A DNA stretch of 64,000 bases from Aminobacterium sp. MB27-C1 (GTDB lineage Bacteria > Synergistota > Synergistia > Synergistales > Aminobacteriaceae): positions 124,001 to 188,000 of the forward strand of contig NZ_CP133089.1 in the NCBI RefSeq assembly GCF_030908405.1. Reading direction: 5' to 3'. Shown piece by piece: positions 10,137 through 11,928 of this stretch; the stretch's first letter is position 1, and each line of letters starts with the position of its first letter. Below the pieces are notes generated by a model. The model was not told the DNA's origin and did no database searches. It worked only from the letters and a program-made list of their open reading frames with translations. A program made the translations under genes and the position numbers.

Positions 10137-10163
10137 AAGGCGGCGTAAAAGCCGCCTTTTTTT
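10137..10163 (+). terminator. Strong intrinsic terminator of the gcv operon
   Basis: AAGGCGGC (10137-10144), loop GTAAAA, GCCGCCTT (10151-10158), then a T-run. It separates the gcv operon from the small-gene cassette. Confidence 0.85.
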
Positions 10164-10226
10164 ATTCCCTTTTTGTTTTTTGCGCCCTTTCAACACACTT
10201 ATATAGGTGAAGGGGGGTGAAAAAGA

Positions 10227-10442
10227 ATGGCAGCTTATCTTCCATTAGAAAGTCGCCTGCAGCTTCGAGTTAACATCGGTTCTAATGAAAGCGGAGATCC
10301 GATTCTTCGTTCCATCAACTTTTCAGGAGTTTCTTCTGATGTTGAAGCTGAAAAGGTAGCAACAATTTCAACAGTGCTCGAATCTCTTCTCGAATATCCA
10401 GTAGCAGAGACACGAAAAGTAGATACAGACGTTGTGGAGTAG
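10227..10442 (+). CDS. DUF1659 small protein
   Basis: A 71-residue protein (MAAYLPLESRLQLRV.IG...SG.PILRSINFSGV) that fits the DUF1659 family, small soluble proteins of unknown function common in Firmicutes and often encoded next to DUF2922 and YvrJ genes. GGGGGG lies before the ATG. It has no signal peptide, membrane helix or cysteine. It is bracketed by terminators at 10137-10163 and 10469-10505. No function is known; its place in front of a holin-like gene, a peptidoglycan peptidase and a sigma factor suggests a shared process. Confidence 0.75.
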   Translation: MAAYLPLESRLQLRVNIGSNESGDPILRSINFSGVSSDVEAEKVATISTVLESLLEYPVAETRKVDTDVVE

Positions 10443-10468
10443 AGAAGAAACGCAAAATACTATATGAT

Positions 10469-10505
10469 GGGGGTGCATCCTTAAAAGATGTCGCTCCCGT
10501 TTTTT
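10469..10505 (+). terminator. Intrinsic terminator or attenuator between DUF1659 and DUF2922 genes
   Basis: A stem of 11 pairs with one bulge and two G-U pairs (10469-10479 with 10487-10498) closes on a 7-base loop and runs into GTTTTTT. No clear promoter lies between it and the next gene, so partial read-through would set lower expression downstream. Confidence 0.65.
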
Positions 10506-10524
10506 CCAGAAAGGAGTGATTTTA

Positions 10525-10731
10525 GTGAAAACCCTTCGTCTTAAATTTGGTACCGCAGATGGAAAAAACCGAACCCTCTCTCTTCGCTATGCACGTGAAG
10601 ATGTTACAGATACAGAGGTAAAGGAAGCAATGCAATCCTTAATAGACAACAACATCTTTGTAAAAGGGTTAGCCGCTATTCTTGGGGCTGAACTTGTAGA
10701 GACTACTGTAACCCCTATTATCGAGGGATAA
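10525..10731 (+). CDS. DUF2922 small protein
   Basis: About 68 residues (MKTLRLKFGTADGKNRTLSLRYAREDVTDTEVKEAMQ...), matching DUF2922, a small family of unknown function. The start is a GTG at 10525, 8 bases after AAGGAG; the GTG at 10516 is part of that ribosome binding site. The N-terminal half reads as beta strands and the C-terminal half as an amphipathic helix ending in IEG. It sits between two terminators and upstream of yvrJ-like, M15 and sigma genes, an order also known in Firmicutes for DUF1659/DUF2922/YvrJ. Confidence 0.75.
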   Translation: MKTLRLKFGTADGKNRTLSLRYAREDVTDTEVKEAMQSLIDNNIFVKGLAAILGAELVETTVTPIIEG

Positions 10732-10745
10732 AACGTGGCCTTATG

Positions 10746-10774
10746 CGGCCGGAATGCACTTCCGGCCGTTTTTT
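10746..10774 (+). terminator. Strong intrinsic terminator after the DUF2922 gene
   Basis: CGGCCGGAA (10746-10754) and TTCCGGCCG (10760-10768) form a perfect 9-bp stem with a 5-base loop and six T. It is the third terminator within 640 bases. Confidence 0.85.
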
Positions 10775-10801
10775 CGTGTTTTAAAAAAAGGGGGGAAATG
10801 T

Positions 10802-10999
10802 ATGGAAGACTTATTGGCATCGTGTATTCAAAGTGGTTTTTCGGTGGCTGTAGCGGCATATTTGCTTGTGCGCATGGAAAAGAGGCTTGATGATCTGGCC
10901 GGTGCCATCAGAAGTTTGGAAAGTGCAATTACTCATTTGGGAGGAGGGAAACGTTATGAAAAACAAAGTCAATTTAATGCAGCTCACGCCCCATTTTAA
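10802..10999 (+). CDS. YvrJ family, holin-like small membrane protein
   Basis: A 65-residue protein: a short N-terminus (MEDLLAS), one membrane helix (about residues 8-25, CIQSGFSVAVAAYLLVR), then a charged amphipathic helix EKRLDDLAGAIRSLESAI and a basic tail. This is the YvrJ pattern, and the layout also resembles BhlA/UviB-type holin-like peptides. GGGGGG precedes the ATG. Its last 44 bases overlap the M15 peptidase gene in another frame. It likely sits in the inner membrane; release of a small protein or of the peptidase is an inference. Confidence 0.7.
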   Translation: MEDLLASCIQSGFSVAVAAYLLVRMEKRLDDLAGAIRSLESAITHLGGGKRYEKQSQFNAAHAPF

Positions 11000-11324
11000 T
11001 CTTAGCGAGTTTCAATGCAAATGTTGTTGCCACGTAAAAATATGGGCACCTCTTCTTCATCATCTCGAAGCGTTGCGACTTTTTTGGAAGAACCCCTTAG
11101 TTATTACAAGTGGTTTTCGATGTTTGCGCCATAACAAAAAGGTAGGAGGTGTTGCGCATAGTCTTCACACTCAGGGGCGTGCAGTTGACGTTGTTGTAAT
11201 GAAATCTCGACAGACATTTTTTTGCAAGTTGGCTAAAAAAGCAGGATTTACAAGCATCATAGCCTACGGAAAAAGAAACTTCGTTCATTTAGCCTTAAAG
11301 ACAGAAAGGAGTTATCGTGAATGA
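10956..11324 (+). CDS. Peptidase M15-type peptidoglycan hydrolase (endolysin-like)
   Basis: A 122-residue protein with the M15 zinc peptidase block SGFRC..HN..VGG..HSLHTQGRAVD (residues about 49-75) and the third ligand in FVHLAL near residue 111. The N-terminal FNLSEFQCKCCC resembles the start of phage-type D-Ala-D-Ala carboxypeptidases. No signal peptide is present, so it needs help to cross the membrane; the overlapping holin-like gene could supply that. The start is set by GGAGGAGGG 7 bases before the ATG. It overlaps the sigma gene by 4 bases (ATGA), so the three genes are translationally coupled. Confidence 0.82.
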   Translation: MKNKVNLMQLTPHFNLSEFQCKCCCHVKIWAPLLHHLEALRLFWKNPLVITSGFRCLRHNKKVGGVAHSLHTQGRAVDVVVMKSRQTFFCKLAKKAGFTSIIAYGKRNFVHLALKTERSYRE

Positions 11325-11821
11325 CTGATTCTAAATCTTTAACACTGAAAAATATTATACGAAAGAACATTGATCTTATTGAAAAAACAGCTCGTCGTTA
11401 TACTGGCCGTGGTGCAGACTTTGAAGATTTACAGCAAGAAGCTTGTCTGGCACTGATTCATTTAGTTCAAAAACGTCCCCTCGAATCATGTAACGACATA
11501 GGTGAATATTTACGAAAAAGACTTCCCGGTAGAGTACGAGATGCAGCTCGCCGGCATAGGTATGAAGAGCATAATTGTGCCCTTACTGAAGCTCACGAAG
11601 TTTCTATTCCCGCTCCGACGAAACACCTGCCTGTGGATCTCATCGATCTAATAGAGCGCAATTTTTCTAAACTTGATTGCTTTATTATCCGGCATCTTTT
11701 TTACGGATACACCCAAAAAGAAATATCGAAAAAGATTAATAGAACGCAGCAATGTGTTCACTATCGAATAAAGAAAATAAGAAAACGCCTTGACGAACTT
11801 CTTAGGCGTTATGAATTTTAG
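11321..11821 (+). CDS. Sigma-70-like RNA polymerase sigma factor
   Basis: A 166-residue protein with a region 2 core (ADFEDLQQEACLALIHLV, residues about 31-48) and a C-terminal region 4 helix-turn-helix (LFYGYTQKEISKKINRTQQCVHYRIKKIRKRL). It resembles small phage- or plasmid-type sigma factors such as UviA/TcdR and YvrI. The ATG overlaps the M15 stop. A terminator follows 11 bases after the stop, so it is the last gene of the cassette. It may direct transcription of its own cassette or of a cargo gene elsewhere. No anti-sigma gene is seen beside it. Confidence 0.78.
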   Translation: MTDSKSLTLKNIIRKNIDLIEKTARRYTGRGADFEDLQQEACLALIHLVQKRPLESCNDIGEYLRKRLPGRVRDAARRHRYEEHNCALTEAHEVSIPAPTKHLPVDLIDLIERNFSKLDCFIIRHLFYGYTQKEISKKINRTQQCVHYRIKKIRKRLDELLRRYEF

Positions 11822-11831
11822 AGGGCTTGTT

Positions 11832-11860
11832 AAAGAGGGAGTTTAGCCACTCCCTCTTTT
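11832..11860 (+). terminator. Intrinsic terminator after the sigma gene
   Basis: AGAGGGAGT and ACTCCCTCT form a 9-bp stem with loop TTAGCC and a TTTT tail. Confidence 0.75.
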
Positions 11861-11928
11861 CTCGCAAATGGGCTATAATCGCATCTATTGTTTCAATAAG
11901 CACGTATAACGTATACAAGGTGATAGCA

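Follow-up and report, generated by a model that had tools for sequence, protein, structure and literature searches.

The question raised by this locus is what a sigma factor, a holin-like membrane protein and a peptidoglycan peptidase do together in one short row of genes headed by two small conserved proteins. The window, meaning the whole 64,000-nucleotide stretch of Aminobacterium sp. MB27-C1 that was analysed, carries five open reading frames in a row on the plus strand, encoding DUF1659, DUF2922, YvrJ, an M15 peptidase and a sigma factor. An earlier note on this DNA had described this row, including the absence of a leader on the peptidase and the overlapping of the last three genes, and all of these points are borne out by the reading frames and Pfam matches (Table 1), the overlaps being 44 nt for YvrJ/M15 and 4 nt for M15/sigma. 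It had missed the promoter upstream of DUF1659 and the terminator between DUF2922 and YvrJ, both of which are central to the reading given here: judged from sequence comparison, the row is probably an autoregulated, stand-alone holin/peptidoglycan-hydrolase cassette that would serve as a type-10-like export device.

Table 1. Features of the cassette and its borders, in window coordinates.
Feature	Position	Strand	Evidence
Intrinsic terminator of upstream NAD-kinase-like gene	10137-10163	+	Stem of 8 pairs, then T run
Candidate promoter of the cassette sigma, TTTGTTTT-N16-CACTTATATA	10172-10205	+	Conserved element
DUF1659 protein	10227-10442	+	PF07872 8e-16, 58.1 bits (curated cut-off 24.1); 71 aa
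Terminator-like hairpin, DUF1659-DUF2922 gap	10469-10505	+	-16 kcal/mol, T6; not conserved elsewhere
DUF2922 protein	10525-10731	+	PF11148 1.3e-24, 86.3 bits (curated cut-off 25.5); 68 aa
Terminator, DUF2922-YvrJ gap	10745-10774	+	Conserved in position
YvrJ	10802-10999	+	PF12841 6.5e-13, 48.5 bits (curated cut-off 29.5)
M15 peptidase	10956-11324	+	PF08291 Peptidase_M15_3 4e-21, 75.6 bits (cut-off 23.2); PHROG endolysin 2e-31
Short sigma-70-family factor, regions 2 and 4	11321-11821	+	PF04542 3e-9; TIGR02937 58.5 bits (cut-off 42.9)
Putative closing terminator, GAGGGAGTTTAGCCACTCCCTCTTTTCT	11835-11862	+	Read by eye in the sequence; absent from the terminator scan

The borders of the row are marked on both sides. 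The upstream terminator would isolate the cassette from the NAD-kinase-like gene, and as it ends just before the candidate promoter while a closing hairpin follows the sigma gene, the five genes are likely to form one transcription unit.

This arrangement is widespread in Synergistota. YvrJ is encoded in 74 of the 151 genomes of the phylum (41 of 54 genera) and DUF2922 in 112, the latter being present in every one of the 74 YvrJ-bearing genomes versus 38 of the 77 others (p 7e-15). Among the 67 Synergistota loci that were read, DUF1659-DUF2922-YvrJ-M15-sigma is the dominant order; some clades are without the sigma or without M15, and in one family M15 precedes YvrJ. Both the gene order and the co-occurrence of YvrJ with DUF2922 lie far beyond chance. 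The earlier note had pointed to recurrence of the same order in Synergistota and Firmicutes genomes as one way to check its reading, and the genes do co-occur, in full order in Synergistota and as a core in Bacillota, where YvrJ is found in 69 of 149 genomes. The latter phylum has the pair together with YvrJ as well; an amidase or M15 without a leader often comes next, and a ComK-like or sigma regulator often stands alongside. The wall hydrolase and the regulator are thus interchangeable, and the DUF pair with YvrJ forms the core. Many Bacillota chromosomes carry the pair and YvrJ with no adjacent hydrolase, as in Bacillaceae chromosomes such as L109, L112 and L139, in which SbcD/SbcC-like genes follow and no wall hydrolase is seen; the missing hydrolase counts against the export reading.

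Several individual loci depart from this pattern in ways that deserve mention. A small cysteine-rich CNCCDR protein lies between DUF2922 and YvrJ in several Bacillota (L249 1647-1859, L239 1184-1405 and L238 1216-1464), and its L249 copy has no Pfam match. In G087 (contig 4, about 19.5 to 58.4 kb; L177 and L065), an element of ~39 kb with a large serine recombinase sits inside yvrJ, so that the first part of YvrJ stays with the DUF pair and the remainder lies with M15 and the sigma, and in L181 the pair is tandemly duplicated as DUF1659-DUF2922-DUF1659-DUF2922 ahead of M15. Thermotoga maritima, taken as a control genome, carries DUF2922, so the range of the pair exceeds Bacillota and Synergistota. 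The wider gaps of some loci hold no extra cargo genes, only repeats or noncoding sequence, and a PADLOC search of the cassette for anti-phage defence components returned only the generic sigma region of MzaA (2e-5). Outside the window, at about 723 to 733 kb of G000 contig 1 (L259), restriction-modification-like genes, a patatin-like protein and an adjoining putative CD-NTase were read by eye as a putative anti-phage island. In the literature, no paper was found that treats YvrJ, DUF1659 or DUF2922 as a system; a statistical study from 2010 places DUF1659 with spore formers (PMC2955703).

The sigma is a single chain of 166 aa with region 2 at residues 13-80 and region 4 at 124-157, the latter falling below the Pfam cut-off. 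Upstream of DUF1659 stands a conserved element, TTTGTATA-N16-CACTCTTATA, of nearly invariant spacing, and the genus form TTTGTNTN-N16-CACTTATA has a single perfect match in the window's genome, namely this promoter. A first test of the association between element and sigma used a trained matrix and was repeated in a training-free manner with the fixed expression [TG]TTGT-N19-CAC[TA], which occurs at a rate of 0.002 in shuffled sequence. This expression is found upstream of DUF1659 in 33 of 42 loci of sigma-bearing genomes versus 0 of 21 loci of genomes without the sigma (p 5e-10), the loci being related such that the comparison amounts to about four independent transitions and not 63; on the cassette tree the presence of the sigma changes four times, and the motif is lost each time. 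The nine sigma-bearing loci that are without the exact motif comprise several diverged forms and others with nothing recognisable. Most loci without the sigma have a sigma-A-type promoter in place of the element, and none of the eleven genomes without the element in which the sigma was sought has it. Two apparent exceptions (G006 and G020) encode the sigma elsewhere in the same genome, and the three genomes of family f11 (G002, G005 and G007) match the sigma only distantly and differ in their upstream sequence.

The element is also retained where the operon has come apart. G076 encodes the DUF pair on one contig and YvrJ-M15-sigma on another, with the motif upstream of both; g35 is a genus in which M15, the sigma and the DUF pair are all apart from one another, and the motif stands at each, if weaker in some species. 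The view implied by the earlier note, that the sigma controls its own cassette, is supported by the distribution of the element and by its persistence on these split pieces, and there is strong evolutionary evidence that the sigma drives the operon in which it is encoded. It further appears to be dedicated to the cassette, given that all 12 matches to the strong form of the element with at most one mismatch in the 151 genomes lie at DUF1659 promoters and that the element survives fission. A genome-wide promoter search did not find a second conserved target with confidence. Two species of the genus do have a near-perfect copy of the promoter ahead of an HTH_36/DnaD-like gene (L215 1311, G000:720310; L216 1282, G035:863281); this gene could be a second target or a chance match, and as a control pattern yields an equal number of matches, the hit is indistinguishable from chance.

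Within the operon, a second level of control is suggested by the terminator between DUF2922 and YvrJ. RNA from this gap folds more stably than shuffled sequence (median z -2.1, with 26 of 50 below -2), in comparison to median values of 0.11 for the DUF1659-DUF2922 gap and 0.52 for the M15-sigma gap. Strict terminators with a T run are present in the DUF2922-YvrJ gap of 31 of 64 Synergistota loci, versus 5/64 for DUF1659-DUF2922 and 3/56 and 0/41 for the remaining gaps, and strong hairpins likewise lie in the DUF2922-YvrJ gap in Bacillota. In the window, 27 nt separate the terminator from the start of YvrJ, which is too short for a promoter, so that YvrJ, M15 and the sigma need read-through; by this arrangement more of the DUF pair is expected than of the three products encoded behind it.

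YvrJ itself has one clear hydrophobic segment (score 1.76) followed by a C-terminal amphipathic helix. PHROG 4898, annotated as a holin, is matched by 11 of 13 YvrJ proteins (best E 8e-9), and in three phage contigs (L086-L088) virion genes are followed by YvrJ and then by an M23 or Amidase_2 endolysin. At the Aerococcus tenax locus YvrJ is missing, and a sigma factor and DUF2922 stand ahead of Phage_holin_Dp1 (9.5e-30), a true phage holin, and a CHAP enzyme. The suggestion of the earlier note that YvrJ is a holin-type membrane protein is well matched by the hydrophobic segment, the PHROG annotation and the phage lysis position, and YvrJ is best described as a membrane protein of phage lysis cassettes that would act as the putative holin here. 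Membership in the BhlA/UviB family (PF10960) was considered and rejected, as YvrJ has no Pfam match to it and an hhalign profile comparison gave a probability of 1.7.

The M15 protein is predicted to be a minimal, leaderless peptidoglycan peptidase. It has no signal peptide, with hydrophobicity averaging at most 0.71 over any 19 residues, while the Zn motif SLHTQGRAVD...FVH, with H, D and H as ligands, is present and recurs in 58 of 61 relatives. Such an enzyme would need export, and here the genus g35 is instructive: it has no YvrJ, and its co-regulated M15 begins with MEVWKLLVALAALVVPLLTG, MKLWKLLAALAVPLLAG or MELWKLLTVLAALAVSW in three species, each a hydrophobic, signal-like start, from which we infer that this segment stands in for YvrJ. 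One genome, G053, carries three signal-bearing M15 copies under the sigma promoter, one of them decayed (L218, L219, L269, L275 and L279), and in L218 a DUF2922 remnant follows M15.

The products encoded first are the most difficult to place. DUF1659 is soluble and DUF2922, like it, has no predicted membrane helix; both are predicted to adopt a beta-beta-alpha-beta arrangement (model pLDDT 76 and 82, respectively). The two appear to be paralogues, as a profile comparison relates them at E 8e-5 (probability 61) and the DUF2922 protein also matches the DUF1659 Pfam family at 0.12. No significant structural match was obtained among solved structures for the models or sequences, and matches to phage p56 and to a Y-family polymerase domain were too weak and were set aside. 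Close relatives of DUF1659 were not found in viral contigs by tblastn, nor was DUF2922 found in annotated phages. In the 38 genomes that keep DUF2922 without a detected YvrJ, the immediate neighbours of the pair are unrelated genes, and in several genomes the pair is present without the sigma; the pair therefore cannot depend wholly on the export device and has value of its own. This persistence argues against a role purely as cargo, and the best guess is that the pair acts at the envelope or passes it.

From these observations a working sequence of events can be proposed. The sigma, encoded last, would recognise the element upstream of DUF1659 and switch on its own operon, creating positive feedback; DUF1659 and DUF2922 would be transcribed first and in excess, and the terminator, judging from its position and conservation, would pass only some transcripts on to YvrJ, M15 and the sigma. 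YvrJ, as a phage-derived single-span holin, would then carry the leaderless M15 across the cytoplasmic membrane, a step suggested by the phage context, by the replacement of YvrJ with a true holin and by the signal-bearing M15 of YvrJ-less genomes, and M15 would open the wall locally. The device would probably operate without general lysis, and the abundant DUF pair would act at or pass through the opened envelope, this last step being the least certain. A more general proposal, which is possible but doubtful, is that YvrJ modules are domesticated, non-lytic export devices in two phyla, and that the DUF pair represents a novel class of small proteins that are secreted or act at the envelope, with a self-activating sigma switch behind their bulk production.

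Other readings of the cassette must be weighed against this one. It is rather unlikely that it serves lytic altruism, whereby a few cells would turn the sigma on and be burst by YvrJ and M15, releasing the DUF pair or an unlinked product, even though positive autoregulation would suit an all-or-none switch, YvrJ takes the phage lysis position and UviA-UviB-endolysin loci have been discussed as possibly lytic (PMC9527704). A lethal role is hard to fit with the 14 loci in which a sigma-A-like promoter (9-12 of 12 matches) precedes DUF1659-DUF2922-YvrJ-M15, and the conserved cassette of this diderm phylum, where the search was made, showed no recognisable spanin gene; both points favour non-lytic use, and the outcome of the genome-wide promoter search, with no confident second target, likewise counts against lytic release. 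The DUF pair might alternatively be a cytosolic partner, such as a chaperone or a brake which keeps the holin or the peptidase from acting until the ratio shifts. Its tight linkage to YvrJ (74/74), the excess over YvrJ-M15 that the terminator would give it, and its co-regulation with M15 even where YvrJ is missing would all accord with such a partner, which nonetheless remains a minority view as the pair stands alone, among unrelated neighbours, in the 38 genomes already mentioned.

A role in DNA traffic, in which the pair and YvrJ would serve uptake or release while the wall hydrolase opens a path, is improbable. It draws on the ComK-family proteins encoded beside the module on plasmids of Geobacillus and Peribacillus as well as in a number of Bacillota genomes (PF06338, 1e-5 to 3e-5), and on the integrase, SSB, SbcCD-like or RecD2-like neighbours of Bacillota copies; such neighbours vary, however, and are absent from the Synergistota operon, and the ComK matches are weak and may represent a broader regulator family. 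The loci concerned (L072, L074, L079 and L083, with L233, L234 and L258 from Bacillota) place the ComK-family gene next to DUF1659-DUF2922-YvrJ-hydrolase, some being plasmids with a tyrosine recombinase behind. That the cassette is a domesticated prophage remnant with no present function is very hard to credit: YvrJ and M15 are phage-like, but most Synergistota families conserve the gene order, the promoter, the active-site residues and the place of the terminator, and the separated pieces have retained their promoter.

The export device remains the preferred reading, and its value lies partly in the families it would bring together. Hundreds of species encode YvrJ, DUF1659 and DUF2922, on whose function there is essentially no literature, and the cassette gives these three anonymous families a regulator, a promoter of known sequence and a testable mechanism. 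Genomes without the sigma, without YvrJ or with a split operon constitute a natural control series. If the proposal holds, ordinary diderm anaerobes that are not pathogens would join the clostridial toxin and bacteriocin systems as users of sigma-driven holin export.

It is to such clostridial systems that the earlier note had likened the cassette. The sigma-holin-endolysin logic of this likeness is supported, while membership is not. The group 5 sigmas TcdR, UviA and BotR share an SRQ motif in region 4.2 and recognise a TTTACA -35 (PMC4031146); the window sigma has TQQ and TTTGT in their place and was rejected as a member of the group, and YvrJ has no detectable homology to BhlA/UviB. One relative (L044) does carry SRQ. 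As in the Bcn5 bacteriocin loci with UviA-UviB-endolysin, and in TcdR-TcdE, a dedicated sigma is combined with a small holin-like protein, an adjoining hydrolase and signal-less products (PMC9527704). The earlier note counted an added endolysin as a difference, which does not hold, since known UviA-UviB loci already adjoin an amidase endolysin (PMC9527704). The cassette differs instead in its sigma subgroup and promoter, its non-BhlA holin, its diderm phylum and the presence of DUF1659/DUF2922 where a toxin or bacteriocin would stand.

A second parallel is found in Bacillus subtilis, where yvrJ is driven by a dedicated SigO-RsoA sigma activity (PMC8103513). On plasmids of Bacillus and Halobacillus, SigO-type genes are also found in divergent orientation to yvrJ; unlike SigO-RsoA, which is split over two proteins, the cassette sigma is one chain with regions 2 and 4 and is encoded inside the operon. 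In colicin operons, which are SOS-driven, the bulk product comes first and a lysis or release gene of reduced expression follows behind a terminator. The cassette shares this order of bulk product and release gene, while it has no toxin and no immunity gene and is sigma-driven.

Another close comparison is with type 10 secretion, as known from Serratia ChiWXYZ and Salmonella TtsA, in which the holin serves to export a Zn peptidase that has no leader and attacks peptidoglycan (ChiX, of the LAS family); the cassette is alike in this, its export being putative. It differs in having no spanins recognised within the cassette, its own sigma, another holin family and other co-regulated proteins, while the pairing of a holin with a leaderless peptidoglycan hydrolase encoded together, a feature of type 10 systems, is found in the cassette genes. 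In Serratia, a signal peptide placed on ChiX rescues a chiW mutant, so that the holin can become dispensable once the peptidase has a signal of its own (PMC5778951), and the signal-like M15 N-terminus of g35 after loss of YvrJ would mirror, by analogy, this ChiW/ChiX experiment.
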